Shown here piece by piece: positions 14,173-55,599 of a DNA stretch of 64,000 nucleotides; position 1 is the first letter of the stretch; every line of letters begins with the position of its first letter. Where the stretch lies: positions 62,001-126,000 of the forward strand of contig JAIQGG010000006.1 in the NCBI GenBank assembly GCA_020072785.1. The letters are read 5' to 3'. The notes under the pieces are model-generated. The model had not been told where the DNA came from, searched no databases, and worked only from the letters and a program-made list of their open reading frames with translations. Origin of the DNA: Terriglobia bacterium. GTDB lineage: Bacteria; Acidobacteriota; Terriglobia; Acidiferrales; UBA7541. The translations under genes and the position numbers were made by a program.

Positions 14173-14667
14173 TTGCTCCTCCAACACGCTTCCGAACTCG
14201 CCATTCGCGCAACGCTCTTCCTGGCGCAGCAGGAGCCCGGGAAGCTTTCGCCGGTCCGCGAAATCGCTGCGCACACGGGTGTTTCGGAGGCGTACCTGGC
14301 GAAGATTTTCCAGCGGCTCGGGGCTTCCGGTTTGGTCCGGTCCTTCCGCGGTCCCGGAAAGGGTATGGAACTCGGCCGCGCACCGAAGAGCATCTCGCTC
14401 GCCGCGGTAGTCCGCGCCGTGGAAGGTGCGAAGGAGCCGGACATATGCGTTCTGGGCCTCGGGGTGTGTTCCGAGGAGAATCCTTGTCCGCTCCATGAAG
14501 AGTGGCTGCCTCTGCGGGCGGCTATCCACAACTTCCTCGAACAAACGACGCTCGCCGATCTGGTCCGTGTGGTGAATGAGAAATCACGCCACCAAAAACC
14601 GGGCGTGCTCAATTTGATCGCTGCGGAGGCCGCGGCAGTCCGAGCGCGAGAAAGGAAGCGGTTGTGA
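14173..14667 (+). CDS. Rrf2-family Fe-S transcription regulator
   Basis: 164 residues with an N-terminal winged helix (ASELAIRATLFLAQ, then PVREIAAHTGVSEAYLAKIFQRL), which is diagnostic for the Rrf2/IscR/NsrR family. Three cysteines in the pattern C-x7-C-x5-C (ICVLGLGVCSEENPC, residues about 92-106) are placed to hold a [2Fe-2S] or [4Fe-4S] cluster. The start is TTG at 14173, matching the family MLL start; GGGGA lies about ten bases upstream. It is the first gene of the nar cluster and overlaps the next start (TGATG), so it most likely senses NO, redox state or oxygen and controls this operon and itself. NsrR is the closest functional analogue. Confidence 0.85.
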   Translation: MLLQHASELAIRATLFLAQQEPGKLSPVREIAAHTGVSEAYLAKIFQRLGASGLVRSFRGPGKGMELGRAPKSISLAAVVRAVEGAKEPDICVLGLGVCSEENPCPLHEEWLPLRAAIHNFLEQTTLADLVRVVNEKSRHQKPGVLNLIAAEAAAVRARERKRL

Positions 14668-15506
14668 TGAAATTCGGATGGTTGCTAAGCGCTTTGCTGT
14701 TGCTGTTTTTCTTGTGCCCCAGAGCACTTGCCCAACAGCCGGCCGACTTTTTTCAACAGAACTGCACCAGTTGCCACACGATTGGCGGCGGGCGGATAAC
14801 GGGCCCCGACCTGAAGGATGTGACGAAGCAAAAGGATCGTGCCTGGCTCGAGCACTTCATCCAAAACCCAAAGGCAGTCATTGATGGCGGGGACCCTTTC
14901 GCTTTGCAACTGCAGCAAGACGCCCGCGGAGTCGTGATGCCTGCGATTCAAGGTTTGACACCGCAAATGGCGAAAGGACTGCTCGATATGATTGAGGCGG
15001 AATCGAAGCTTGCCAAGTCCCGATTCGCCGGGGTGAGTATCAGTGACCGGCCATTTACAGCGGCCGATGTAACCCTGGGGACGGAAATTTTCGCGGGCAC
15101 CCGGAAGTTGAGTCAGGGCGGTCCGCCCTGCATTTCCTGCCATACGCTCGGCACGATTGGCGGTCTGGGAGGGGGCCGGCTGGGACCGGATCTGACGCGG
15201 GTTTATGAGCGCCTGGGCGGACGAAAGGCAGTGGGCGCGTGGCTTTCCGCTCCCGTTACGCCGACGATGCAGGCTGTATTTCGCCAGCACCCTTTGCAAT
15301 CCGAGGAAATCCTGCCGCTGCTCTCCGTGTTTGAGGATGCCTCGCGGCGCTCACAGCCCGCGGACACGGGGACGCAAGTGAATTTTTTCATAGGCGGTTT
15401 TGCGGGTGCATCCCTCGGTCTCCTGGTCATGGGCTGGGTGTGGCGAAACCGGATGCGAACGGTGCGGCGGAGCATGGTGACTGCGGCGCAACGAGGTGCG
15501 GAATGA
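14667..15506 (+). CDS. Membrane-anchored diheme cytochrome c (NarC-like)
   Basis: 279 residues: signal peptide 1-22 (ending ALA), heme site one CTSCH (33-37), heme site two CISCH (155-159), and one C-terminal TM helix at about 240-257 with a basic cytoplasmic tail. It should be a periplasmic electron carrier tethered to the membrane. The gene overlaps both the regulator upstream (TGATG) and narG downstream (ATGA), so it belongs to the nar operon. Thermus thermophilus has the same order, narC-narG-narH-narJ-narI, where NarC is a diheme cytochrome needed for nitrate respiration. NarC is the best working name; a link to the downstream complex III is also possible. Confidence 0.82.
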
Positions 15507-18500
15507 AGCGCAAGAATGGCGTGAGCTGGATCAAGGATGAAAGCAACCCGCAGTTGCGTAGTTGGGAAGAGTTCTATCGCAACCGCTGGCAGCACGACAA
15601 GATCGTTCGCAGCACCCACGGCGTCAACTGCACGGGCGGCTGCACCTGGCAGATTTTCGTCAAAGACGGAATCGTCACCTGGGAGATGCAGGGGCTGGAT
15701 TATCCCCTGCTCGAAGCAAGTCTTCCGCCGTACGAGCCGCGGGGCTGCCAGCGCGGAATTTCCTATTCGTGGTACCTCTACAGCCCACTGCGCGTGAAGT
15801 ACCCCTACATGCGCGGGGCGCTGCTGGACTTGTGGAAAGAAGCGCGGGGCAAGTTTGACGATCCCGTCGAAGCCTGGCAATCGCTGGTGGAGAACCCCGA
15901 GGCGCGGCAGCGCTGGCAGAAGGCGCGCGGCAAGGGAGGATTCCGCCGCAGCGATTGGGAGACCGTGAAGGAGCTGATCGCGGCAAGCTGCCTGTATACC
16001 GCACGGAAGCACGGGCCCGACCGCATCGCGGGCTTTTCGCCGATTCCGGCGATGTCCATGATCAGCTACGCCTCCGCGAGCAGACCGACGTGAACGAATC
16101 CGCCGACTGGTACAACGCCAAGCTGCTGGCGGTGATGGGCTCGAACCTGAACATGACGCGCACGCCGGATTGTCATTTCGCCGCCGAAGCGCGCCACAAC
16201 GGCAGCAAGATGTGGGTCTTCGCGCCGGACTTCAGCCAGGTTTCGAAATATGCGGACGAATGGGTGCGCATCAATGCGGGGCAGGATGGCGCGTGGTGGA
16301 TGGCGGCGAACCACGTCCTTCTGAAAGAGTTTCACCACGAACAGAAGATTCCCTATTTCCTGGATTACACGAAGAAATATACGGACGCTCCGTACCTCGT
16401 CGAACTGAGCCAGGACGGCAACGAGTACCGCGCCGGGCAGTTGCTCCGCGCCGGACGTCTTGCCGCCTATCAGGGCGCCGAGAACGGGGAATGGAAGTTT
16501 CTGATGTGGGATGGGGCGGAGCAGCGGCCGAAGATGCCGATGGGCAGCTCCGGATTCCGCTGGGGCCAGGAGAAAGGGAAGTGGAACCTCGAACTGAAAG
16601 ACGGCCGCGACGGTTCGGCGATTGACCCCGCGCTGACCTTCCTCGGCGAAGGCGACGACGTCGTACAGGTGCGCTTCGACGATTTTGCCGAGGGGAAAAC
16701 GATTTGCCGCGGCGTGCCGGTGCGCAAGATCCGGACAGCGGACGGCGGCACGGTGACCGTGACGACGGCGTACGACCTGCTGATGGCGCAATACGGCGTG
16801 CCGCGCGGCTTGCCGGGCGCCTATCCCCGGGATTATGACGATGCCGACGCGCCCTATACCCCGGCGTGGTCCGAGAAATTTACCGGTTTGGGGCGAGATG
16901 TGCTGATCCGCTTCGCGCGGGAGTGGGGAAGCACGGCGAATCATACCAAGGGCAAGTGCACGGTCATCATCGGCGCGGGGATCAATCACTGGTATCACGG
17001 CAATCTCATGTATCGCGCCGCGATCCACGCGCTGATGTTCTGCGGCTGCGTGGGCGTGAACGGCGGAGGACTGGCGCATTACGTGGGCCAGGAAAAACTG
17101 GCCCCGATGGAGTCCTGGTCTTCGATTGCATTTGCCCGGGACTGGATGCCCGCGGCGCGGCTGCAGAATGCGCCGAGCTGGCACTACGTCAATTCCGATC
17201 AATGGCGCTATGAGAAGCAGTTCACCGATTACCATACCGTTCCTCCCGGCCAGGCTCCCGGATCGCTCGCCGGCGGGCACACGATGGACGCGCAGGTGCG
17301 CGCCGTGCGCAATGGCTGGCTGCCGTTCTATCCGCAGTTCAACCGCAATCCGCTGGAAGTGGTCCGCGAAGCGCAGCAGGCCGGCGCCGACACGCCGGAG
17401 AAGGTGGCCGAATACACCACGAAAAAGCTGAAGAGCGGCGAGCTGAAATTTGCGGTCGAAGACCCCGACGCGGAGGAAAACTGGCCGCGCGTATGGTTCA
17501 TCTGGAGGGGCAACGCGCTGATGGCCAGCGCCAAAGGCCACGAATACTTCCTGAAGCACTATCTCGGCACGCACACCAATAGCATCGCCACGGACATGGC
17601 GGAAGGTTCGGTGAAGGAGGTGGTGTGGCACGAGACGGCTCCGCAGGGAAAGATGGATCTGATCGTGGATCTGAATTTCCGCATGGACACGTCCGCGCTT
17701 TATTCCGACATCGTGCTGCCGGCGGCCACCTGGTATGAGAAGGCCGATCTGAATTCGACCGACATGCACAGCTTCATCCATCCGCTCTCCGCGGCGGTGC
17801 CTCCCTGCTGGGAATCCAAGAGCGACTGGCAGATCTTCGGCTCCCTGGCGAAGAAGTTTTCGGAATTGGCCGCCCGGCATTTCCCCAAGCCCATGTGGGA
17901 CCTGGTGGCGACACCGCTGGCGCACGACACGGCGGCGGAGATCGCGCAGCCGCAAATGCTGGATTGGAAGAGCGGCGAAGTGGAAGCAATTCCCGGGAAA
18001 ACGATGCCCGGGCTGAAGCTGGTCGCGCGCGACTACAGCAACCTCTATAACCAGTACATCTCGTTCGGGCCGCAAGTCCGCGCGCAAGGCTTGGGGGCCC
18101 ACGGCACGCATTACAACTGTGAGGATCTCTACGATGAGGCCGCGCGCAATTTGCCGGTGAGTGTGTGGAACGGCCAGCGCTATCCCTCGATGGCTGCGGA
18201 TGAAGATGTCTGCAATCTGATCCTGCGATTCGCGTCGGTTACCAACGGAGAACTGGCCTACCGCTCGTATCGCGATATGGAAGCCAAGGTGGGCTTGCCG
18301 CTCGCGCACCTGGCCGAGCGCAATCGCGGGTCACGCATCTCCTATAAGGAACTGCAAACCAGGCCGCACCGCCTTTTGAACAGCCCCATGTGGTCCGGGC
18401 TGACGGAAGACGGCCGGGCCTACGCGCCCTTCACTTATAACGTGGAATGCCTGGTGCCCTGGCGAACGCTGACCGGCCGGCAGCATTTCTATCTCGACCA

Positions 18501-19056
18501 TCCCGGCTACATCCAGTTTGGCGAGCACCTGCCGACCTATAAGCCGAAGCCGCTGCCGGTGCAGTACAGCGATCTGCGTCTGAGCGAGGAAGTGGGGCCG
18601 ACCAAGACGCTGAACTATCTGACGCCGCACGGGAAATGGCACATCCACTCGACCTACGGCGACAACCACCGCATGACCACGCTTTCGCGGGGCATCGAGC
18701 CGCTGTGGATGAACGATAAGGACGCGGTGGACATCGCCATCAACGACAACGACTGGGTGGAAGTGCACAACGACAACGGCGTGGTGGTCACGCGGGCGGT
18801 GGTGAGCGCGCGCATCCCGCGCGGCATCTGCATCCAGTATCATTCGCCGGAAAGAACGTTTTCCGTTCCGACTTCGCCGCTGCGCAAGAACCGCCGCGCG
18901 GGCGGGCACAATTCGCTGACGCGCACGCGGCTGAAGCCGAATCTGATGGTCGGCGGCTACGGACAATTCACGTTCCATTTTAACTACTGGGGTCCGGTGG
19001 GCTGTAACCGGGACACGCACGTCTTCGTGCGGAAGCTGCCCGAACTGAAGTGGTGA
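15503..19056 (+). pseudogene. narG: Respiratory nitrate reductase alpha subunit, broken by internal deletion and frameshift
   Basis: Molybdopterin catalytic subunit of membrane-bound nitrate reductase. The N-terminal part (191 codons, 15503-16075) holds the FS0 [4Fe-4S] ligands His39, Cys43, Cys47 and Cys82 and runs to MSMISYAS. The match resumes in another frame at 16078 with [13 protein letters not shown] and continues for 992 residues to a normal C-terminus. Compared with E. coli NarG about 31 codons are missing (GARYL...QTWG) and two bases remain, a net loss of about 91 bases. The lost part includes YCDLPPASP, whose Asp (Asp222 in E. coli) binds molybdenum. Read as it stands, the N-terminal piece stops at 16093. 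No Tat signal, so cytoplasmic type. Either a real null allele or an assembly error; the rest of the gene is well preserved. Confidence 0.9.
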
Positions 19057-19067
19057 GGAGCGCTGCT

Positions 19068-20558
19068 ATGGACGTCCGTTCGCAAGTGGCGATGGTCTTT
19101 CATCTGGACAAGTGCATCGGCTGCCACACGTGCAGCATCGCGTGCAAAAACATCTGGACCGACCGCCGCGGCACCGAATACATGTGGTGGAACAACGTGG
19201 AGACCAAGCCCGGCACGGGCTTTCCCACCCGCTGGGAAGATCAGGAGAAATACCACGGCGGCTGGGAGGTGCATGACGGGAAACTCCAGCTGCGCTCCAC
19301 GAGCAAAGCGAAGACGATCTTCAACATCTATCACAACCCCAGCATGCCCACGATGGATGACTACTATGAGCCGTGGACCTACGACTACCAGCATCTGTTC
19401 AACGCTCCCGAAGGACCGGACCAGCCGACGGCCCGGCCCATCTCGATGGTCACCGGGGAATTAATCCAGATCGAATCCGGCCCGAACTGGGATGACGATC
19501 TGGGCGGCTCACCGGTCTATGCGGAAAACGACCCGAACCTGAAAGGGTTGAGCGCGGAGCAGCGCGCGCAGCTTTCCGCGGTCGAGCGGCTGGTCTTTTT
19601 CTATTTTCCGCGCATCTGCAATCACTGTTTGAATCCGTCCTGCGTCGCTTCCTGCCCGTCGGGCGCGCTGTACAAGCGCGGCGAGGACGGCATCGTTCTC
19701 GTGGATCAGAAGCGCTGCCGCGGCTGGCGCATGTGCGTGGCGGCGTGCCCGTACAAGAAAATGTTTTACAACTGGAACACGGGAAAATCGGAGAAGTGCA
19801 TTCTCTGCTACCCGCGGCTGGAAACCGGGCAAGCTCCCGCCTGCTTCCATTCCTGCGTGGGCCGTATCCGGTATCTGGGCGTGGTGCTGTACGACGCATC
19901 GCGGATCGAGGCGTTCGCGGCGAGTCCGGACGAGAAGCTCGTCGAAGCGCAGCGCGCGCTGATTCTCGATCCGCACGATCCCGAAGTAATCGCGGGCGCG
20001 CGGAAGAACGGCATTCACGAATCGGTCCTCGAATCCGCGCAACGCTCTCCGGTCTATCAATTCGTGAAGGTGTGGAAGATCGCCCTGCCGCCACATATCG
20101 AATACCGGACCATGCCCATGCTGTTCTACGTGCCGCCGATGTCCCCGGTGATGTCGAACCAGGCGGAGGGAACGATTCATCACAATTCCGAGGACCTCTT
20201 CCACGACATCGACGAATCGCGCGTCCCGTTGCAATTTCTCGCCAATTTATTTGGCGCGGGGCATGAAGGCTTCGTGCGGTACGCGCTGCGCAAGCAGAAA
20301 GCCGTCCGCTGGTATCGCCGCGCGCTGACCGTGGGCGATGTGGAGATGGCCACCGCCGAACGGATGCTGCGGGAGGCCGATTGCTCGGCGGCAGAAGCCG
20401 AAGCGATCTACAGGCTGACTTCGCTGTGCACCTTCGACGATCGTTTTGTGATCCCGCCGATGCACCGCGAGGAAGCCATCCAGATGCTGGAAGACCCGCT
20501 GGAGCACAAGCAGGGTGCTGGATTCGGATTTGTCTCCGGACCGCACCGGGGGACGTGA
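19068..20558 (+). CDS. narH: Nitrate reductase beta subunit (Fe-S)
   Basis: Electron-transfer subunit of 496 residues on the cytoplasmic side, passing electrons from NarI heme to NarG. All four cluster motifs are visible: CIGCHTCSIAC near the N-terminus, CNHCLNPSCVASC, KRCRGWRMCVAACP (Trp in place of the second Cys, the hallmark of the [3Fe-4S] cluster in NarH) and KCILC...CFHSC. The ATG at 19068 has GGAG close upstream, 11 bases after narG. It overlaps narJ by one base. Length and motifs are normal, in contrast to the damaged narG next to it. Confidence 0.95.
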   Translation: MDVRSQVAMVFHLDKCIGCHTCSIACKNIWTDRRGTEYMWWNNVETKPGTGFPTRWEDQEKYHGGWEVHDGKLQLRSTSKAKTIFNIYHNPSMPTMDDYYEPWTYDYQHLFNAPEGPDQPTARPISMVTGELIQIESGPNWDDDLGGSPVYAENDPNLKGLSAEQRAQLSAVERLVFFYFPRICNHCLNPSCVASCPSGALYKRGEDGIVLVDQKRCRGWRMCVAACPYKKMFYNWNTGKSEKCILCYPRLETGQAPACFHSCVGRIRYLGVVLYDASRIEAFAASPDEKLVEAQRALILDPHDPEVIAGARKNGIHESVLESAQRSPVYQFVKVWKIALPPHIEYRTMPMLFYVPPMSPVMSNQAEGTIHHNSEDLFHDIDESRVPLQFLANLFGAGHEGFVRYALRKQKAVRWYRRALTVGDVEMATAERMLREADCSAAEAEAIYRLTSLCTFDDRFVIPPMHREEAIQMLEDPLEHKQGAGFGFVSGPHRGT

Positions 20559-21121
20559 TGAGCGACGCCAATATTTACGCGGGGCTTGCCGTGCTCTTCA
20601 GCTACCCGGCGGGCGGCTACCGCCTGCAGGCCGGCGATTGTCTTGGCGCGATGGGCAGCGAGCCGGGCGAAGCCGCCGCTGCCTTCCGGGAGTTTCATGC
20701 CGGCATCGAGGGGCTGGGCACGGAGGAGTTGCAGGAACTTTTCACCCGCACGTTTGACCTGAATCCGATGTGTACGCTGGAGATCGGCTGGCAGCTCTAC
20801 GGAGAGGATTACCACCGCGGCGAATTCCTCGTGAGGATGCGCGAGCAGCTCCGCGAATATGATGTGCCGGAGTCCGGCGAACTTCCCGATCATCTCTCCC
20901 ATGCCCTCCTGCTGCTCGGAAAGCTGGAGGCGGAGGAAGCCGCCGAATTCGCCAGCCGCTATGTACTGCCGGCGCTCGATAAGATGCGCTCCGCCTGGAA
21001 AGAAAATCGCAATGCGTTTGCACCTCTGCTGGAGGCGGCCTTCGCTTTCCTGAAGGACCGGTACCCGTACGATCCCGCGCTGACTCCGAAGCGCGTGCCG
21101 GAATTGCACGTATTGCAGTAA
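20558..21121 (+). CDS. narJ: Nitrate reductase assembly chaperone
   Basis: 187-residue TorD/NarJ-type chaperone that holds apo-NarG until the molybdenum cofactor is inserted and the complex reaches NarI. The conserved helical core is seen (ELQELFTRTFDLNP, TLEIGWQLYGEDYHRGEFL, ELPDHLSHALLLLG). The start overlaps the narH stop (TGATG) and it lies 12 bases before narI, the standard operon position. Confidence 0.93.
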   Translation: MSDANIYAGLAVLFSYPAGGYRLQAGDCLGAMGSEPGEAAAAFREFHAGIEGLGTEELQELFTRTFDLNPMCTLEIGWQLYGEDYHRGEFLVRMREQLREYDVPESGELPDHLSHALLLLGKLEAEEAAEFASRYVLPALDKMRSAWKENRNAFAPLLEAAFAFLKDRYPYDPALTPKRVPELHVLQ

Positions 21122-21133
21122 GAGGAAAAGAAG

Positions 21134-21826
21134 ATGACTAACCCATTCGTCAATCAGCTGCTGTTCATCGTCTTCCCCTATCTGGCGATGTTCATCTTTT
21201 TCCTGGCCACCATCCTGCGCTTTCGCCTGACGCCGTACTCCTACTCGAGCCTGTCCTCGCAGTTCCTGGAAAATCAACGCCACTTCTGGGCGCTTGTGCC
21301 CTTCCACTACGGAATCGTCTTCGTGCTGACCGGGCACGTGGTGGCTTTTCTTCTGCCCCAGCAGATCCTGGCCTGGAATAGCCGGCCCTTGCGCCTGTAC
21401 ATCCTGGAGACGACCGCGCTGGTTTTCGGTCTGCTCACGGTCGTGGGATTGCTGGGAGCGATTGCGCGGCGGCTGACTGTTTCCAAAGTTCGCAAGGTAA
21501 CCAACGGTTTTGACTGGGTGGTGCTGGCGATGTTGCTCGCCGAGGTGTTGCTCGGCGTTTCCGTTGCCGTCTTTCACCCCTGGGGATCGGCCTGGTTCGC
21601 TGCGGCGATTTCCCCGTATCTGTGGTCCCTGGTGCGGTTCAATCCGGATCTGGGTTACGTGGCGATGCTGCCGGGCGCGGTGAAAGCGCATATTGTTCTG
21701 GCGTACGCCATCATCGGCTTCACTCCGTTCACGCGCATGGTGCACATCCTGGTAGTTCCCAATCCCTATCTCTGGCGCAGGACGCAGGTGGTCCGGTGGT
21801 ATCGCGCACCGAAAGAAGCGGCGTGA
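21134..21826 (+). CDS. narI: Nitrate reductase gamma subunit (cytochrome b)
   Basis: Integral membrane quinol oxidase of 230 residues with five hydrophobic segments. The four heme-b ligands are present as His58 and His68 (FHYG, GHVV) and His186 and His204 (KAHIVLAY, MVHILVVP), matching the spacing in E. coli NarI. An AAGAAG-type ribosome binding site precedes the ATG at 21134. Its last codon overlaps the GTG start of the following porin gene, so the porin is translationally coupled to narI. Confidence 0.93.
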   Translation: MTNPFVNQLLFIVFPYLAMFIFFLATILRFRLTPYSYSSLSSQFLENQRHFWALVPFHYGIVFVLTGHVVAFLLPQQILAWNSRPLRLYILETTALVFGLLTVVGLLGAIARRLTVSKVRKVTNGFDWVVLAMLLAEVLLGVSVAVFHPWGSAWFAAAISPYLWSLVRFNPDLGYVAMLPGAVKAHIVLAYAIIGFTPFTRMVHILVVPNPYLWRRTQVVRWYRAPKEAA

Positions 21827-23355
21827 GCAGAAATCTCCAACACGCAGTGGCGAAGCTGGTTCTGGTTTGCGCAGGGATGTGCCCCGGGATCGCTTTTGCG
21901 CAATCCGCGGAACCCGCATCTGCACCGGCCCAGCGCGCTGTGGTGCCGCCGAAACTGGAGACTGCGCCTGCTCCGAAGCGCAAGCTTGGTCCTCTGGATA
22001 TTTCCGGCAGCTGGCGTGTGCGCGTGGAAGGCTGGGACTGGTTCGAAGGCCCGGCAGGCAACAGCAACTATGCCTTCGGCCACTCGCTCTTGCGCGTTGC
22101 CATCGGCCAGCAGAGTGCGCGCTTCGATTGGCAACTCGAAGCCGCGCAAGACACGATTCTCGGCCTGCCCGCGGATGCCGTTGTGGCAGCCCCGCAAGGA
22201 CAGCTGGGATTGGGCGGCACGTATTTCGCCGCCAACGGCAATGGCCGCAACAACGCCAACGGATTCGTCAAGCAGGCCTACATCCGATTCAAGGGGTTGG
22301 GTAAAGGAAATCTCCGGCTCGGGCGCTTTGAATTCCTCGACGGCACGGAGGTCGTGCCTAAGGACGCGACGCTGGCCGCGCTAGTGCAGAGCCGTATCGC
22401 ACAGCGGCTCATCGGCAATTTCGGATGGTCGGCGGTTGGGCGCAGCTTCGACGGCGCGCAGTTCTCCTACAACTTCGGCCAGAACAACCTGACTCTCATC
22501 GGAGCCCGGACGACGCGCGGCGTCTTTCAAATCGATGCCATGGGCGAAGTAAATGCGGAGGTGTACTACGGGGCGCTGACGATCCCTGTCGAGGCCCGGC
22601 ATGGAGCAGGGGAACTGCGGTTGTTCAGCGTGGGCTACGTCGATCGCCGCAGCACAGTACTGAAGACCGACGACCGGCCGCAAGCGGTTCGTGCCGCGGA
22701 CCAGGACCAGATTCGCATTGGAACCTATGGTCTGGACTATATCCATGTTTTCCATACCGCAACGCGCGGCAAGTTCAACTTTCTTCTCTGGGGCGCGCTG
22801 CAAAGCGGCTCGTGGGGAATCCAACAACACGGCGCGGGCGCTTTCATCGGGGAGTTTGGCTGGCAGCCGCCGGTGAAGCACCTGAAACCGTGGCTGAGCG
22901 CCGGCTATTCCTACGGCAGCGGCGACGGAAATGCGAACGATGCGCACCACGGCACGTTTTTCCAGATATTGCCGACGCCCCGGCCTTACGCGCGCTTTCC
23001 GTTCTACAACATGATGAATAACGAAGATTTCTACGGGACGCTGAATCTTCGCCCGCATGCAAAGCTTTCGCTGCGCAGCGAATTGCATGTGCTGCGCCTC
23101 AACAAGTCCACGGATCTCTGGTACCTGGGCGGCGGCGCGTTCCAGCCCAAGACGTTCGGCTATACCGGCCGCCCCAGCAACGGCAACCGCAGCCTGGCCA
23201 ACGTGGCGGACATCAGCGCCGACTACCAGATGACGCGAAACTTCGGAGTTGGTCTTTACTACGCGCATGCCTGGGGCCAAGACGTGATCGCGAAAATTTA
23301 TCCGAACGGCCCAAACGGCCAATTTGCCTTTGTGGAAACAAATTTCCGCTTTTGA
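21823..23355 (+). CDS. Outer-membrane alginate-export-type beta-barrel, in the nar operon
   Basis: 510 residues. Signal peptide 1-26 (ending IAFA), a Pro/Ala-rich spacer, then a long beta-strand-rich region resembling the AlgE-like alginate-export domain used by many diffusion porins, and a C-terminal ETNFRF strand with terminal Phe, the outer-membrane signature. The GTG at 21823 overlaps the narI stop (GTGA), so it is co-translated with nitrate reductase. I infer an anion porin that lets nitrate in or nitrite out. Alginate export itself is unlikely because no alginate genes are near. Confidence 0.78.
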   Translation: MSRNLQHAVAKLVLVCAGMCPGIAFAQSAEPASAPAQRAVVPPKLETAPAPKRKLGPLDISGSWRVRVEGWDWFEGPAGNSNYAFGHSLLRVAIGQQSARFDWQLEAAQDTILGLPADAVVAAPQGQLGLGGTYFAANGNGRNNANGFVKQAYIRFKGLGKGNLRLGRFEFLDGTEVVPKDATLAALVQSRIAQRLIGNFGWSAVGRSFDGAQFSYNFGQNNLTLIGARTTRGVFQIDAMGEVNAEVYYGALTIPVEARHGAGELRLFSVGYVDRRSTVLKTDDRPQAVRAADQDQIRIGTYGLDYIHVFHTATRGKFNFLLWGALQSGSWGIQQHGAGAFIGEFGWQPPVKHLKPWLSAGYSYGSGDGNANDAHHGTFFQILPTPRPYARFPFYNMMNNEDFYGTLNLRPHAKLSLRSELHVLRLNKSTDLWYLGGGAFQPKTFGYTGRPSNGNRSLANVADISADYQMTRNFGVGLYYAHAWGQDVIAKIYPNGPNGQFAFVETNFRF

Positions 23356-23400: not shown

Positions 23401-24726
23401 GTGAATCGCATCGAAGGATCACCCAAGCGGGCGTTATGGAGCGCGACCCTGGGCTTTTTCGTCGGCTTCGCGGCGGTCGCTCTCTTTGGACCGTCCGCCA
23501 AACTTTTTCAGCAGGTGATGGGCCTCGGCCCGCTGGCCATGGGGTTCCTGGTCGCCATACCGGCCCTGTCCGGCTCCCTGTTACGAATTCCGTTTTCGGC
23601 GTGGGTGGATACCACCGGGGGCCGCAAGCCGTTTCTGTTGCTGCTGGGTCTTTCCCTGGCAGGGATGACCGGCCTGACACTGGTTGCCCGGTTCCTGTAC
23701 CCCGCACACCTCTCCGCCGCAAGCTTTCCGCTGCTGCTGGCGCTGGGGGTTCTGTGCGGTTGCGGAATCGCAACGTTTTCCGTCGGGATCAGTCAAGTTG
23801 CCTATTGGTTTCCGCAGAAAAAACAGGGGCGCGCTCTGGCCATCTTTGCCGGGGTAGGCAATGTGGCCCCGGGCATCTTCACGCTGATTCTACCCTTCGC
23901 GCTGGCGCGGTTTCGCCTTGCGGGGTCCTACGTACTCTGGCTGAGCATTCTCGCCGCCGGAACGCTTCTCTACGCCATCTCCGGCAGGAACAGCCCGTAT
24001 TTCCAACTATTGAAGCAGGGTCTGGCTCCCGCGGATGCCCGGGCGCGTGCGTGTGAACTCGGCCAGGACTTGTTCCCCGCCGGAAGTTTGAAAGAAAGCC
24101 TGCGAGCGTCCGCTCGCGTGTGGCGGACCTGGGCGCTTGTCTGGATCTACTTTACAACTTTCGGCGGCTTCATCGCGCTGACCGCCTGGCTGCCGACCTA
24201 CTGGATCTCTTTTTACGGCGTCAGCCTGTTGAAAGCCGGGTTGCTGACGGCCGTCTTTTCGATCCTGGCCTCGCTGATTCGAATCGCGGGCGGCGTCCTC
24301 TCCGACCAGTTGCACGAGGGTGGAGAAAACACAGCGATTCTTGCGTTGCTGATCACGCTGGTCGGCGCGCTGGTGATGACCAGCTCGCACCAGTTCGAGC
24401 TCTCGGTGCCGGGCGAGATCTTGATGGCCATCGGCATGGGAATCTCCAATGCGGCGGTGTTCAAGATCGTGCCGCAGGCTGTGCCGCACGCCGTGGGAGG
24501 CGCAGCCGGCTGGGTGGGAGGCTTGGGAGCGTTCGGCGGATTCGTGATCCCGCCGGTGATGGCCTTTGCGGTCCGCAACCTCGGCACTCCAGGATATGCG
24601 ATCGGATTTGTGACCTTTATTTTCCTGTCCCTTTTCTCGCTCTCGATGGCCTGGATTCTCAAATATACGCGCGAGAGTGCGACACCGCCCGCGGTGCAGG
24701 CAGAGCCCGCGGGAGCCGGCCGCTAG
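23401..24726 (+). CDS. narK: Nitrate/nitrite transporter (MFS, NarK family)
   Basis: 441-residue major facilitator with 12 predicted helices. The position next to nar genes and the Gly-rich helices GVGNVAPGIFTL and GGAAGWVGGLGAFGGF correspond to the two nitrate-signature helices (TM5 and TM11) of the NarK/NasA group. The start is GTG at 23401 with GGGAGG upstream. It lies 45 bases after the porin gene. It is expected to do nitrate uptake or nitrate/nitrite exchange. Ten bases separate it from actA, so the respiratory cluster probably continues as one transcript into complex III. Confidence 0.88.
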   Translation: MNRIEGSPKRALWSATLGFFVGFAAVALFGPSAKLFQQVMGLGPLAMGFLVAIPALSGSLLRIPFSAWVDTTGGRKPFLLLLGLSLAGMTGLTLVARFLYPAHLSAASFPLLLALGVLCGCGIATFSVGISQVAYWFPQKKQGRALAIFAGVGNVAPGIFTLILPFALARFRLAGSYVLWLSILAAGTLLYAISGRNSPYFQLLKQGLAPADARARACELGQDLFPAGSLKESLRASARVWRTWALVWIYFTTFGGFIALTAWLPTYWISFYGVSLLKAGLLTAVFSILASLIRIAGGVLSDQLHEGGENTAILALLITLVGALVMTSSHQFELSVPGEILMAIGMGISNAAVFKIVPQAVPHAVGGAAGWVGGLGAFGGFVIPPVMAFAVRNLGTPGYAIGFVTFIFLSLFSLSMAWILKYTRESATPPAVQAEPAGAGR

Positions 24727-24736
24727 GGGGCCACTG

Positions 24737-25390
24737 ATGAACGAGAAAGTCGTCACCATCGTGCTGACTGTGGGGCTGTTGTTCAGCCTGGCCATGTTCG
24801 CTGTGCAGGCGAGCTCGTGGCACATTCCCGGCAATCAGCAGGGGTACGAGCCGGTTCAACCCATTGCTTTCTCTCATCGGTTGCACGCAGGGGAACTGCA
24901 AATCGCGTGCCTCTACTGCCATTCGGGGGCGGAGACGAGCCGCCATGCCGGCATTCCTCCCGCCAGTACGTGCATGAACTGCCACAAGTTTATCCCGGCG
25001 CCGCTCGGTGCGCTGCGCGCCGAAGACGAACTGGCGAAGCGGGAAAACCGCAAGCCGCGGCTGGTCGTGTCACCGGAAATTCAGAAGATCTACGATGCGT
25101 TGGCGCTCGACGAGCGCCTGGTGCGCGATCCGCAAAGGACGCCGCAACCGATCGCGTGGACGCGCGTCAACCGGCTGCCGGATTTCGCCTATTTCAACCA
25201 CAGCGCGCACGTCAGCGCCGGCGTGGCGTGCCAGCAGTGCCACGGCCCGGTCGAAACCATGGACCGCGTGCGCCAGGTGCCGGACTTGACGATGGGCTGG
25301 TGCGTGAACTGCCACCGGACGGCGAATGCAGCGGGCGTAGCGAGCAAACCGGTGCAGCCTTCGATTGACTGCTCGACGTGTCACTACTGA
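24737..25390 (+). CDS. actA: Alternative complex III subunit A, pentaheme cytochrome c
   Basis: 217 residues with an N-terminal membrane anchor (about 6-25) and five CxxCH heme sites: CLYCH, CMNCH, CQQCH, CVNCH and CSTCH, the last two residues from the C-terminus. This matches ActA, the periplasmic multiheme subunit of alternative complex III (quinol:cytochrome c oxidoreductase). The ATG at 24737 lies 10 bases after narK. It starts the six-gene act operon. A class III-type cytochrome in a Psr/Qrc-like complex is the alternative, but the full act gene order decides it. Confidence 0.92.
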   Translation: MNEKVVTIVLTVGLLFSLAMFAVQASSWHIPGNQQGYEPVQPIAFSHRLHAGELQIACLYCHSGAETSRHAGIPPASTCMNCHKFIPAPLGALRAEDELAKRENRKPRLVVSPEIQKIYDALALDERLVRDPQRTPQPIAWTRVNRLPDFAYFNHSAHVSAGVACQQCHGPVETMDRVRQVPDLTMGWCVNCHRTANAAGVASKPVQPSIDCSTCHY

Positions 25391-25399
25391 GGAGTGCGC

Positions 25400-28300
25400 A
25401 TGGCTTCGGGGAAAACGCCGCAATACTGGAAGAGCTGGGAGGAAGGCCCGGGCGCAGCGGATCTCGTACGAATCACCACGGACGAGTTTCCTGAGCCCCT
25501 AGATCGTCCGGCTGAGCAATTCAGCCGGCGCTCCTTCTTGAAGGCCGCGGGCTTCACGGCTGCCGTAGCGGCGGCCGGAATCGGCTGTTCGCGCGCGCCC
25601 GTCGAAAAAGCGATCCCCTATCTGATTCAGCCCGAAGAGATCGTTCCTGGAGTTTCCTATTTCTACGCGAGCACCTGCGGAGGATGCCCGGCGAGCTGCG
25701 GGGTTCTGGCCAAGAACCGCGATGGGCGGCCCATCAAACTGGAAGGCAATCCGCAACATCCGGTCTCGCGGGGCGGACTCTGCGCCGTGGGACAGGCTTC
25801 GCTGTTGGAGCTCTACGATTCGCACCGCTGCACAGAACCGCAGCTGGATGGTCAGCCCGCCAACTGGGACGAAGTGGACCGGCAGGTCGCCGCCCAGCTC
25901 GCCCTGCACCGCAGCGCGGACAGGCCGGTTCGTTTTCTCACCGGGACGATATCGAGTCCCACGTTGAACGCGGAGATCCGGAAGTTCCTCGCGCCATTCC
26001 GCGATGCACGCCACATCGTTTATGACGGGCTGTCCAGCTCCGCGATCCTGGATGCGCACAAAGACACGCACGGGGAGCGATTGCTACCGCACTACCGGTT
26101 CGATCACGCCGACGTGATCGTGAGTTTCGACGCGGATTTTCTGGCAACGTTGATCTCGCCGGTGGAGTTTAGCCGCGGCTACGCCGCCGGGCGCCGGCTC
26201 GATGTCCATCCGCCGCGGATGTCGTATCACGCGCAATTTGAATCGCGCTTGTCGGTGACCGGAGCCAAAGCCGACCGGCGCGTCCGCGTGTCGCCCCAAG
26301 AACTCGGCGAAGCAATGGTGGGCCTCGCTGCGCGCCTGGCTCTTCTCGCGGGCGCGGCGTTTCCTCTCCGTGTCGGCGGGGCGGGCCATCCGCCGGATAC
26401 ATTGCTCGACGACCTCGCGCACCGGCTCTGGCAGGCACGCGGCCGCAGCCTGGTCCTTTGCGGCTCTCAAGACGTCCGGCTGCAGGTGCTCGTCAATTTC
26501 CTCAACGACCTGCTGGGGAATTACGGATCGTCGCTGGAGCTGGAGCGTCCTTCGCTGCAGAAGGCTGGCAACGATCGCGAGCTGCAGACACTTCTGGAAG
26601 AGCTGCGTGACGGTAAGGTCGCTGCGCTCTTTCTCCATGGAGTTAATCCCGTCTACGACCTGCCCAGCGGAGACGCGCTGGCCGGACAGATTCGAAAAGT
26701 GCCGCTGGTAGTGAGCTTTGCCGGCCGTCTGGATGAAACCTCCGCGCTCGCGCGGTTTGTTTGCCCGGACCACCATTCCCTGGAATCCTGGGGCGACGCC
26801 GAACCCGTGCGCGGCACGATCGGCTTGTTCCAGCCGGCGATACGCCCTCTGGGCAATACGCGCGCTGTCCAGGAGAGTCTCGCGATTTGGGGAGGCCAGC
26901 CGAAAGCGGCCTACGACATCCTCCGGGATTACTGGCGCGAGAATATATTTCCGCAGCGCAAAGGCGATGCGGATTTCCAAACGTTCTGGGATCGTGCCGT
27001 CGAAGCCGGGTTTGCGGAAGTGCCTTCCGCGGCGCCCAAGCCTAGCCATTTTCGCGCTGCGGCACTTCAGGCGGTGCCGCCTCCGGCTCCCGCTGGCGGC
27101 GAGTTCTCCTTGGTTCTCTATCCTAAGGTCGCGATGCTGGACGGCCGCCACGCGGAAAATCCCTGGTTGCAGGAGCTGCCGGATCCCATCAGCAAGGTGA
27201 CTTGGGATAACTACGCATGCGTTTCTCCTGCCGCGGCGCAACGGCTCGGACTGAAAGATGGGGACGTCGTTCGCCTCGAAGCGGATGCCGGGAAGGGAAG
27301 CGCGGCCGCGCTGGAACTGCCGGTTTATGTGCAGCCGGGACAGCACGACCAAGTGATCGCCGTGGCGCTTGGCTACGGCCGCAAAGCCACGGCGCGATTC
27401 GCCAGCGTCGGGCCGAAATGGCTTTTCGGCGGGCCGGACGTGGGCGAAGACGGCCGGATCGGAAAAAATGCCGCAGCGATGCTCATCCTCGCTGGCGGAA
27501 GCCTGCAATACGTTCATGAGGGGATCCGTCTGAGTAAGACCGGCAAGCGGCACGCGCTGGCCTCCACGCAGACCCATCACAGCTTGACGATGCCGCAGAA
27601 CGTGCCGCTGGTCGGCGGCGAACATCGCGAAATCGTGCGCGAAACAACGTTCGGCGCGTTGATCGCAGAGGCCGGGGAACCTTCCCCCGCCGCGTCCGGC
27701 AAGAACGGCCTCTGGCCGGCGGACCATCCGTACAACGGCCATCGGTGGTCCATGGCCATTGATCTGACTGCGTGCACAGGCTGTTCCGGCTGTGTCGTCG
27801 CTTGCCAGGCCGAGAACAACATTCCCGTCGTGGGCAAGGATGAGGTTCTTCGCCATCGCGAGATGCACTGGATCCGAATCGATCGCTACTACTCGGGCGA
27901 TGCGGACGTCGACGTGGTGCAGCAGCCAATGATCTGCCAGCAATGCGACAACGCACCGTGCGAAACCGTTTGCCCGGTGCTTGCGACGGTGCACAGCGCC
28001 GAGGGGCTCAACCAGCAGATCTACAATCGTTGCGTGGGCACGCGCTATTGCGCCAACAACTGCCCCTACAAGACGCGCCGTTTCAACTGGTTCAACTATG
28101 TCCGCAACGATCGTCTGCAAAACCTCGCGCTCAATCCCGATGTGACTGTGCGATCGCGCGGCGTGATGGAAAAGTGTTCCTTCTGCGTGCAGCGAATTGA
28201 AGCCGCGCGCATCGAGTCCCGGCGGCGCGGCAAGCCGATTGCCGACGGGCAGATCCAGACCGCGTGCCAGCAGTCGTGTCCATCGCAGGCGATTGTTTTC

Positions 28301-28468
28301 GGGGACCTGAACGATCCGAACAGCCGCATCGCCCAGATGGCGCGCGATCCACGGCGGTTCGGGGTACTCGAGGAGTTCAACTTCCGGCCGGCGGTGAATT
28401 ACCTCAGTCTGGTCCGGAATCGCGATTCCGCGGACAGAACCTCAAAAGAGGGCCAGAACAATGGCTGA
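25400..28468 (+). CDS. actB: Alternative complex III subunit B, molybdopterin-fold plus Fe-S protein
   Basis: 1022 residues. A Tat-type RRSFLK motif near residue 42 and a hydrophobic stretch are followed by CGGCPASCG and a large domain with the fold of molybdopterin oxidoreductases, which in ActB is known to carry no cofactor. From about residue 780 a ferredoxin-like part holds four cluster motifs ([39 protein letters not shown]...CQQSC). This fused architecture is characteristic of ActB. GAGGAG precedes the ATG at 25400. It overlaps actC by eight bases. Confidence 0.92.
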
Positions 28469-29909
28469 CTTTCCTGTACCGCTGCAAAAGCCTTTGATCA
28501 CCGGCAACAAGACACCGGCGGATGTCACGCGAGATATCTGCCATTCCCTCGAAGGGCGGCCCACGCCGCTGTGGTGGGGCGGATTTCTTGTGGCTCTTGC
28601 GCTCCTGCTCCTCGGCGCATTGGCCGTGAGCTATGAAGTGGCCACCGGAATCGGCACGTGGGGCGTGAATCGCACCGTCGGCTGGGCCGTGGGCATCACT
28701 TCCTTCGTTTTCTGGATCGGCATCGGCCACGCGGGCACCTTGATTTCCGCGATCCTCTTCCTGCTGCGCCAGCGTTGGCGCACCTCCGTGAATCGTTCCG
28801 CCGAAGCCATGACGATCTTCGCGGTCATGTGCGCGGGCATTTTCCCCGTGATTCACCTCGGCCGGCCCTGGATGGCGTACTGGCTGTTTCCCTATCCCAA
28901 CACGCGCGGGCCTTTGTGGGTCAATTTTCGTTCGCCGCTGGTGTGGGACGCTTTTGCGGTTGGCACGTATTTCACAATTTCCTTGGTCTTCTGGTACCTG
29001 GGACTGATCCCGGATTTGGCGACGGTGCGCGACCGGTTGCGCAGTGGTTTCCGCTGGCGGTTGGCGTCCGTGATGAGCCTCGGCTGGAATGGCTCCTTCC
29101 GCACCTGGCATCGCTACGAATCCTTGTATCTGATGCTCGCGGGACTCGCGACGCCGCTGGTCCTCTCGGTGCACACCATCGTGAGCTGGGACTTCGCGAC
29201 CGGAGTGATTCCGGGCTGGCATGCCACCATCTTCCCGCCGTACTTTGTTGCCGGAGCGATCTTCTCCGGGGTGGCCATGGTTTTGACGCTGGTCCTCGTG
29301 GCGCGCAAAACCATGCGTCTGGAAAACTACATTACGCTGCGCCACGTCGATGTGATGTGCAAGCTGCTCCTGCTGACCAGCGGAATTGTTGCCCTCGCCT
29401 ATGCCACGGAATTTTTCACCGCCCTCTATTCGACGAATGCGTATGAAGAATTCGCGTTTCTGAATCGCGCCTTCGGGCCCTTCGGCTGGGCCTATGGGAT
29501 CATGGTGGGTTGCAACGTGCTCACTCCGCAGTTGCTCTGGTTCCGAAAGGTGCGGAGCAATCTCTGGCTGGTCTTTCCCATCTCCATCCTGGTGAATGTC
29601 GGCATGTGGTTTGAACGCTTCGTCATCATCGTGACCTCGCTGCACCGCGATTTCCTGCCCTCCAGCTGGACGAGTTACCGCCCCACGCCCATCGAGATCT
29701 CCATGCTGCTCGGGAGTTTCGGCCTGTTCTTCACCTTATTTCTCCTCTTCTGCCGGTTTTTGCCGGTCATCGCGATGGCCGAGGTGAAAGGCGTGCTGCA
29801 CGTTGGCCACCAAGCGAAAGTACCGGGTTCCGAGCGGCATCCCGCAGGACGGCCGCTGGAAAAATTGAAGACCGCCGCTGTGCAGACCGGGGAAGGAGGA
29901 TTCGCATGA
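28461..29909 (+). CDS. actC: Alternative complex III subunit C (NrfD-like membrane protein)
   Basis: 482-residue polytopic protein of the NrfD/PsrC family with about ten TM helices, the quinol-binding membrane subunit of alternative complex III. Typical features are [15 protein letters not shown] in an early helix and the [14 protein letters not shown] segment. It overlaps actB by eight and actD by four bases (ATGA), indicating tight coupling. Its paralogue actF lies three genes downstream, as in all complete act operons. Confidence 0.92.
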
Positions 29910-30448
29910 GCCGGCGAGTCGTTGTCGGAGTGTTTGACGACGAAGCGAATCTGCTGGGGGTCACGCAGGAGGCCCGCGCCAAGGGATGGAAGGTCATCGA
30001 CGTCTACACCCCGTATGCCGTGCATGGATTGGACGCGGCGATGGGCTTGCGTCCGTCGCGTCTTCCCTGGGTTTGCTTCCTGGCGGCGATCACCGGGGCC
30101 GCGCTGAAACTTTGGTTTGAATTCTGGACCACCATGGTGGACTGGCCGCTCAACATCGGTGGCAAGCCCTGGAACTCTCTCCCCGCCTTCGTGCCCGTGA
30201 CGTTTGAAGTCATGGTGCTTTCCGCCGGGTTGACGACCATGTTTGCTTTCCTCGTGCTGGCGCGGCTCCGGCCGGGCAAGCGGCCGGTTATGCCTTTTCC
30301 CGGCGTCACCGACGACCGCTTTGTCCTGGTGCTGGAAGAGTCGGACGCGCGCTTCGACCTGGCGCGGGTGCGCCGGCTGTTTGAGAAGTTCGGTGTTGTG
30401 GCGTTTGAGGAACGGATCGAGGAGGCTGGATGTCCCGGCGAACTCTGA
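29906..30448 (+). CDS. actD: Alternative complex III subunit D (DUF3341)
   Basis: 180 residues, two TM helices at about 55-75 and 95-120, with the N-terminal signature of the family ([23 protein letters not shown]). ActD is a small membrane subunit whose exact role is structural or unknown. It overlaps actC by four bases and actE by 19 bases. Confidence 0.9.
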
Positions 30449-31026
30449 ACGTCGCGCTGCTGGCGGTGTTCCTGGCGAGTCTGGCGCTGAACTGGGCGAT
30501 GCGCCCTCAACCCTGGCGGCCGAACCGCGAGTTTATTCCGGAGATGGTGCGAACCCCGCGCTTCAATGCGTACTCCACGAACCCCAACTTTGCGAACGGG
30601 ATGACGCTGCAGACTCCGGTTGCGGGAACGATCCCGCGCGGATTTCTCCCGTTGCACTATGCCCCCACCCCAGAAGATGCGGTTCGCGCGGGTGACACTT
30701 TGGAGAGCCCCATTCGGCCTGATGACGCCCAAGCTATCTCCCGCGGCTCCGTCGTCTTCGCTAATTTCTGTGTCCCGTGTCATGGCGCCGCGGGCAAAGG
30801 CGACGGCCTGGTAATACAGCGAGGTTATCCCGCGCCGCCTTCGCTGTATGCGGACAACGCCAGGAAAATTAAGGATGGCCAGATTTTCCACATTTTGACC
30901 TACGGCCAGAAGAACATGCCCTCCTATGCAAGCCAGCTCTCACGGGAGGATCGCTGGCAGGTGATTGCATTTGTGCGCTCTCTCCAGAAGCAAGCCTCGC
31001 CTGTTCCGGCGGGAGGTCAGCCATGA
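30430..31026 (+). CDS. actE: Alternative complex III subunit E, monoheme cytochrome c
   Basis: 198 residues: N-terminal hydrophobic anchor (about 6-22), one heme site CVPCH near residue 114 and the probable axial Met in KNMPSY near 160. ActE passes electrons from ActA to the soluble or membrane acceptor. The start lies inside actD (19-base overlap) and the stop overlaps actF (ATGA). Confidence 0.9.
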   Translation: MSRRTLNVALLAVFLASLALNWAMRPQPWRPNREFIPEMVRTPRFNAYSTNPNFANGMTLQTPVAGTIPRGFLPLHYAPTPEDAVRAGDTLESPIRPDDAQAISRGSVVFANFCVPCHGAAGKGDGLVIQRGYPAPPSLYADNARKIKDGQIFHILTYGQKNMPSYASQLSREDRWQVIAFVRSLQKQASPVPAGGQP

Positions 31027-32219
31027 ATGATCACCAGGTTCCTGCGCGACTGGCCGCTTTGCGGAGGCCGGCAGCCGCGGTTGCCGCGATCGCTGGGGTA
31101 ATTCTCCTGCTGGGACTCCGGATTGCTCCGGGCCGAGCCTGGCCGGATCTGTTGCTCGCCAGTTTCGCGATGGTGTGCCTCGGCTTGTCCGGCATCTTTT
31201 TTGTCGCTCTCCAGTATGCGAGCGGAGCGGTGTGGAGCATTCCGCTACGGCGCGTGGGCGAAGCTCTCGCGGCCGCCCTACCCCTGGGAGGCCTGGGAAT
31301 TCTGGCGGTACTCCTCGTGCATCCCTCGATTTATCCCTGGTACGGCCATACAGAAATCGTCACGGAAGGATGGGCGGGCTTCAAACACGCCTGGCTTTCC
31401 TACCCTTTCTTTCTCGTTCGTGCCGTGCTCTACCTTGCGGCCTGGCTGGGATTTTCGTCGGCGATTCGAAGGAATTCGCGCCGTCAGGATCGGGATGGCG
31501 GCATGGAGTTAAGCCGGAAGAACACGCGCCTTTCGGTGGCCTTCCTGGTGGTCTTCGGGGTGACCTTCTGGCTGGCGTCCACGGACTGGATCATGTCGCT
31601 CGAGCCCCACTGGGCCAGCACGATCTTCGGTATCTACCACTTTTCCGGGATGTTTCTTTCGGGTTTGGCCATGATCGCTCTGTTGGCCCTGGCCTTGCGT
31701 ACGACCGGACCGCTGCGCCACGGAGTTAGCGACGATCAGTTTCTGGATCTGGGCCGCATGATCGTGGCCTTCGCAACGTTTTGGGCTTACATCTGGTTCA
31801 GCCAGTACATGTTGATCTGGTATGCCAATCTCACTGAAGAAACCTCTTACATGGTGCTCAGGACAAGCTCGGGGTGGGGACAATTGTTTGTCGTGAACCT
31901 GCTGCTGAACTGGGCGTTGCCCTTTTTGCTGCTTCTGCCGCGCGCAAATAAGATCAACCCACGGACCCTCGCCGCCGCTTCTACGATCGTTCTGCTAGGC
32001 CGTGTTTCCGACCTCTACCTTATGATCATTGCGCCGTTCGCAGCGGCAAGTCCGCGGCCTATGATCTGGGACTTTGCAGCACTCGCGGTTGTGGCGGCGA
32101 GCTTGGTTCTGGTGACCCTGCGCGCGTTTTTTGCATCCGAGCCAGTTCCTGTTGGCGACCCGCTCTTCTCTCCAAGCCTGCAGGGCCATGCGCGAAAAAC
32201 GCGCCCCGCACAAACTTAA
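31023..32219 (+). CDS. actF: Alternative complex III subunit F (NrfD-like, short)
   Basis: 398-residue polytopic membrane protein, paralogue of ActC, with about ten helices and family segments such as FWLASTDWIMSLEPHW and FATFWAYIWFSQYMLIWY. It is the last gene of the cluster. No ActG or cytochrome oxidase genes follow; the next element is the tRNA-derived island junction at 32447. So the complex III here is linked to nitrate reductase genes rather than to a terminal oxidase. Confidence 0.92.
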   Translation: MNDHQVPARLAALRRPAAAVAAIAGVILLLGLRIAPGRAWPDLLLASFAMVCLGLSGIFFVALQYASGAVWSIPLRRVGEALAAALPLGGLGILAVLLVHPSIYPWYGHTEIVTEGWAGFKHAWLSYPFFLVRAVLYLAAWLGFSSAIRRNSRRQDRDGGMELSRKNTRLSVAFLVVFGVTFWLASTDWIMSLEPHWASTIFGIYHFSGMFLSGLAMIALLALALRTTGPLRHGVSDDQFLDLGRMIVAFATFWAYIWFSQYMLIWYANLTEETSYMVLRTSSGWGQLFVVNLLLNWALPFLLLLPRANKINPRTLAAASTIVLLGRVSDLYLMIIAPFAAASPRPMIWDFAALAVVAASLVLVTLRAFFASEPVPVGDPLFSPSLQGHARKTRPAQT

Positions 32220-32446: not shown

Positions 32447-32493
32447 TGGTCGGGGCGCCCGGATTTGAACCGGGGACCTCCTGCGCCCAAGGC
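32447..32493 (-). repeat. Partial tRNA-Pro 3' end: island attachment site (left)
   Basis: 47 bases identical to the 3' part of the intact tRNA-Pro at 55523-55599, from the encoded CCA through the T arm and variable loop to the anticodon loop, in the same orientation. The 5' half of the tRNA is absent (the match stops after CCCAAGGC on the plus strand). This is what integration of an element at a tRNA 3' end leaves. It marks the outer left edge of the island complex and separates the act operon from the kdp genes. Confidence 0.88.
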
Positions 32494-41376: not shown

Positions 41377-41421
41377 TGGTCGGGGCGTCCGGATTTGAAC
41401 CGGGGACCTCCTGCGCCCAAG
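41377..41421 (-). repeat. Partial tRNA-Pro 3' end: attachment site between the two islands
   Basis: 45 bases matching the 3' part of tRNA-Pro (55523-55599) with one mismatch at 41388, same orientation, including the CCA. It lies between the kdp island and the catabolic island. With the copy at 32447 and the intact gene it divides the region into two tandem islands of about 8.9 and 14.1 kb. The single mismatch suggests this copy came with a different element or is older. Confidence 0.88.
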
Positions 41422-41888
41422 CCAAGCGTGCTATCTCTGGGAAGTCCTTCCTTTTCAGTCTTACTTCGGAAAGCAAAGGATTTAGCTAAAGAATTTGGTA
41501 GTGGCACGATGTGCGAGGATGTGCCTCCGCATGCATGGAGTCCCCACACTTTTCCCCACAGCGAATGGGAAGTGAAAAACCATCCGAACGATTCTAGATT
41601 CCAAGTGAAATCAATCCTGCTGTTCTGAATCGAAGGGTAGCAATAATATACTGCGATTATATAACGAAAGCGTACTGTGGTAATAACAAAGCAAGCGATT
41701 TAATTTTTCAAGACCGCCGGTTTCAACCGCTCACCCACTCCTCCGTTTTTAATTCTTGCGTATTCTGCGATTTAGCGGCCAATTTGCTACAGTGCGGATT
41801 CGAACTGCTGCATTTTGATGCAATGTACGGGCAGCTTCTTCTTCGATTGCCCAGCAATATTTAGCAAAACCTCGGGAGATTTCCGCGC
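41422..41888. other. AT-rich non-coding stretch at the right end of the catabolic operon
   Basis: About 470 bases downstream of the acyl-CoA ligase gene with no credible gene on either strand. Clearly more AT-rich than the rest of the window (for example around 41640-41720), as expected for the ruins of an integration module, but no integrase fragment is recognisable to me. Confidence 0.45.
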
Positions 41889-55522: not shown

Positions 55523-55599
55523 TGGTCGGGGCGCCCGGATTTGAACCGGGGACCTCCTGCGCCCAAGGCAGGCGCGCTACCAGGCTGCGCTACGCCCCG
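55523..55599 (-). tRNA. tRNA-Pro (anticodon TGG), intact
   Basis: 77 bases fold as a complete cloverleaf: acceptor CGGGGCG/CGCCCCG, D stem GCGC/GCGC, anticodon stem CCTGC/GCAGG with loop CTTGGGC (anticodon TGG), T stem CCCGG/CCGGG with TTCAAAT, discriminator A and an encoded CCA. It is the integration target: its 3' 45-47 bases recur at 41377 and 32447. The intact copy lies at the core-genome side, next to nth. Confidence 0.97.

Follow-up and report, generated by a model that had tools for sequence, protein, structure and literature searches.

The nar gene cluster

The stretch of DNA analysed (the window, 64,000 nucleotides) belongs to a genome of 3.73 Mb in 11 contigs that is 98.88% complete (G000). 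In the window, narG is accompanied by narH, narJ and narI, as in a nitrate reductase operon, with a regulator and a cytochrome gene upstream and a transporter gene downstream (Table 1; cut-offs for narH, narI and narJ are those of NCBIfam). The genome used for comparison throughout, G007, belongs to the same genus and is the nearest narG-bearing genome among those compared. As had been stated in the preliminary description of this DNA, everything in narG outside the lesion and the genes narH, narJ and narI are intact, as judged from profile matches and, for narJ, which scores just under its cut-off, from its likeness to the G007 gene; the NarK-type transporter gene is likewise intact, and all of these are conserved. 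In Thermus thermophilus JL-18, narG is preceded by the gene for a c-type cytochrome, to which the narC-like cytochrome is 28% identical (E 8e-17).

Table 1. Features of the nar cluster and adjoining genes, in window coordinates.
Feature	Position	Strand	Evidence and remarks
Rrf2-family regulator	14173..14667	+	Upstream of the cluster; TIGR00738, 113 bits
narC-like cytochrome c	14664..15506	+	Orf; CxxCH motif present twice, as CTSCH and CISCH; precedes narG, which it overlaps by 4 bases
narG 5′ fragment	15503..16093	+	NarG residues 1-191, then ASRPT and stop; TIGR01580, E 4e-91; 98% identity to G007
Deletion junction TCC/GC/GAG	16073..16080	+	91 bases fewer than G007; position ambiguous by one G
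narG 3′ fragment, other frame	16078..19056	+	992 residues (NarG residue 223 to end); TIGR01580; 98% identity to G007
narH, intact	19050..20558	+	TIGR01660, 658 bits (cut-off 524)
narJ, open full length	20558..21121	+	TIGR00684, 54.1 bits, just under the cut-off of 59.35; 88% identity to G007, full-length
narI, intact	21134..21826	+	TIGR00351, 110.8 bits (cut-off 105.6)
Porin-like orf	21826..23355		Between narI and narK; our own reading, no NCBIfam match
NarK-family nitrate/nitrite MFS transporter	23401..24726	+	TIGR00886, E 1.6e-48, under the curated cut-off
Alternative complex III-like cluster	24677..32219		Directly downstream of the nar cluster; multiheme cytochrome, molybdenum oxidoreductase-like/ferredoxin protein, NrfD, ActD, cytochrome c

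In G007, about 30 bp take the place of the porin-like orf, and the G009 and G038 stretches yielded no counterpart. Beyond the alternative complex III-like cluster, tRNA-Pro(TGG) is encoded by one complete gene, whose 3′ end recurs in two truncated copies, all in the same orientation (32447-32493, 41377-41433 and 55523-55599, all on the minus strand); the truncated copies are 47 bp at 100% identity and 57 bp at 93%. These repeats resemble the attachment-site repeats of islands that use tRNA-Pro for integration, here between about 32.4 and 55.6 kb, and similar repeats are found in G007 (C111:24411-24531 and C7:6461-6610). The segment 40144-50328 of the window shares 96% identity with G007 at a dS of about 0.08-0.16, and most neighbouring genes have dS of about 0.2-0.35; this pattern may reflect either a recent exchange or an island that both genomes owe to a common source.

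Structure of the narG lesion

The narG gene spans 15503-19056 on the plus strand and is broken at 16075/16078. Its 5′ frame begins with the ATG at 15503 and runs to MSMISYAS (last codon TCC, 16073-16075), followed by ASRPT and a TGA stop codon at 16091-16093; the NarG sequence resumes two bases after the TCC codon, at the GAG of 16078, in a different frame that is open up to 19056. This is the break to which the preliminary description had drawn attention. On the TIGR01580 profile of 1235 positions, the 5′ piece covers 26-204 and the 3′ piece 233-1233; the 3′ fragment passes the family cut-off by itself (1123.5 bits versus 1084.15) and the 5′ fragment scores 306 bits. No uninterrupted full-length alpha-subunit frame is present in G000.

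In G007, the narG frame is continuous and blastn finds exactly 91 bases more at the site of the break: the alignment stops and resumes at window position 16076, opposite positions 1918 and 1827 of G007 contig C7. Over the whole gene, the two genomes are 94-95% identical in DNA, with the 91-base gap as the sole indel. The extra bases encode 31 residues, 192-222 of G007 NarG (P0001), and the earlier estimate of about 31 codons, or about 91 bases, holds. Residue D212 of G007 NarG aligns with position 222 of E. coli NarG (mature chain numbering as in 1r27/3egw, an offset of +10), and Asp222 of the E. coli enzyme coordinates molybdenum (PMC8301774, PMC5405038). The equivalent of this aspartate falls within the missing 31 residues, in agreement with the earlier claim that the molybdenum ligand is gone.

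Because the missing stretch holds the molybdenum ligand and also shifts the frame, both ligand and frame are lost, and the allele as written is predicted to be incapable of yielding an active enzyme, the same conclusion that had been drawn beforehand. Relative to the intact gene, the 91-base deletion would remove an active-site segment with its molybdenum-ligating aspartate, and the resulting frameshift would stop translation after 196 residues, giving a predicted product that keeps the N-terminal Fe-S region and has no molybdenum site. GTG and ATG codons occur in frame soon after the junction, and starts at these internal codons could at most give a C-terminal fragment without the molybdenum ligand.

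Distribution of the lesion and of related genes

When a 107-residue probe across the lesion site was compared with 399 genomes of the class (E 1e-10 or better), the narG region was matched in 54 of them and was split solely in G000; every other full NarG-type match in this sample runs continuously through the segment. Within the genus, the region is present in three of the 36 genomes (G000, G007 and G009). The same deletion is absent from the relatives in both sets, and no second strain of the species that shares the junction came to light. G000 has an inactivating lesion where near relatives have an intact orthologue, as in a null allele.

The G000 genome contains no second narG and no copy elsewhere of the missing 91-base piece. 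A replacement of the NapA type was considered and rejected: there are only weak matches to the wider molybdopterin family, none of them above the curated cut-off for NapA. With both the NarG and the NapA types searched, these results support a loss of nitrate reduction by the whole organism, as far as gene content can predict it.

Elsewhere in the genome, a formate dehydrogenase-like frame (L126, at about 37000-39000 of contig C1) has an in-frame TGA codon within the motif CNRTUHAPSVVGL, which fits, as expected, a selenocysteine ligand of molybdenum. Two tRNA-Sec genes (anticodon TCA) are located on contig C2 at 1112064-1112158 (L177) and 1115713-1115807 (L176), both on one strand and separated by 3.65 kb; they are 88% identical over 157 bp, and no similarity extends beyond these 157 bp in the flanks compared.

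Selective constraint and age of the lesion

The remaining parts of narG are under strong constraint, with dN/dS of 0.02-0.06 between G000 and G007. When changes in the 3′ part were polarised, there were eight replacements on the G000 branch versus four on the G007 branch, which is no significant excess, and 32 versus 28 synonymous changes; the 5′ part has no replacements on either branch. Neither relaxed constraint nor a second lesion was seen in the G000 gene. Given the 32 polarised synonymous changes, a narG evolving neutrally over the entire branch would, by rough reckoning, have about a hundred polarised replacements. Neutral decay is not yet visible, and a real deletion must therefore be recent; a similarly rough calculation suggests that the lesion, if real, arose within about the last tenth of the period since G000 and G007 diverged.

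Deletion or artefact

The preliminary description had offered two explanations, a recent loss of nitrate reduction or a collapse in the assembly. The former fits best; collapse of a repeat is unlikely, since the breakpoints share only GGCG and no flanking repeat exceeds four bases. GGCG is present at both ends of the gap, with a single G in common at the exact junction. Had one deletion used the full GGCG repeat, 90 bases would be gone and the frame preserved; in fact 91 are missing. The 91-base deletion would likely have arisen by replication slippage or by end joining across the short GC-rich similarity. A hairpin-driven deletion was rejected, the intact region folding no better than shuffled sequences (z -0.96).

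The gap in narG might instead be a local artefact, such as a chimeric or deleted read, a minority-strain allele in the consensus or a low-coverage polishing error, in which case the real gene would be intact. The absence of decay in the rest of narG, narH and narI speaks for this possibility, because constraint is also expected of an error in a working gene; moreover, the lesion is confined to one genome, and template switching could be favoured by the GC-rich GGCG found at either end. However, no other frameshift was found in the window genes that were compared with G007, which indicates that base quality is good and excludes widespread frameshift errors; the loss of 91 bases from a consensus without a repeat would be an unusual error, and the contiguity and completeness of the assembly are high. 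An artefact is accordingly rather unlikely, although it deserves to be taken seriously. Two functional readings are given much less weight. The two fragments could complement each other, or a frameshift could join them into a shorter active enzyme, as might be imagined from the good conservation of both fragments beyond the junction and from the GTG and ATG codons shortly past it; this is hardly credible, because the molybdenum-ligating aspartate and its 30 neighbours are in neither fragment and are not supplied from elsewhere in the genome, and because the segment is retained in every other full NarG-type match of the class sample. It is also very improbable that a lineage that just lost nitrate respiration has kept the electron-transfer parts NarC, NarH and NarI for another use, for example electron branching via the NarC-like cytochrome.

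The preferred reading is that a recent deletion of 91 bases probably turned narG into a null allele within an otherwise conserved narCGHJI-narK operon. We infer that the deletion is present in the DNA molecule itself, and that nitrate respiration via Nar would be closed to the cell. From narHJI and most of narG, annotation pipelines would label this organism a nitrate reducer, even though the allele as written is inactive; the lesion is a caution against deducing nitrogen cycling solely from a genome sequence. With the NarG region in so few of the genus genomes compared, the locus is possibly a snapshot of the early loss of nar.

Comparison with known nitrate reductases

Jointly, the matches of the two narG fragments to the family of E. 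coli NarG (TIGR01580) begin close to its start and extend to its end; the Fe-S motif region HGVNCTGGC is present, and narH, narJ and narI follow as in the membrane-bound respiratory NarGHI system. The difference lies in the broken frame and in the lack of residues 192-222, with the equivalent of Asp222. The cluster of G007 is the same, but its narG is the longer, continuous one and its narI and narK have no porin-like orf between them. The gene order matches the narCGHJIK operon of T. thermophilus (PMC7694296), with a cytochrome c before narG and an MFS transporter after narI, and the best plasmid match is the NarG of a Thermus plasmid, at about 65%. In contrast to G000, where narG is broken and a porin-like orf separates narI from the transporter gene, the Thermus operon is intact. 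Pseudogenes do occur in Thermus nar clusters (PMC7694296); since inactivated genes are already known in clusters for nitrate respiration, the probable loss of narG in G000 is an ordinary kind of event, in which a nar operon of patchy distribution undergoes pseudogenisation.
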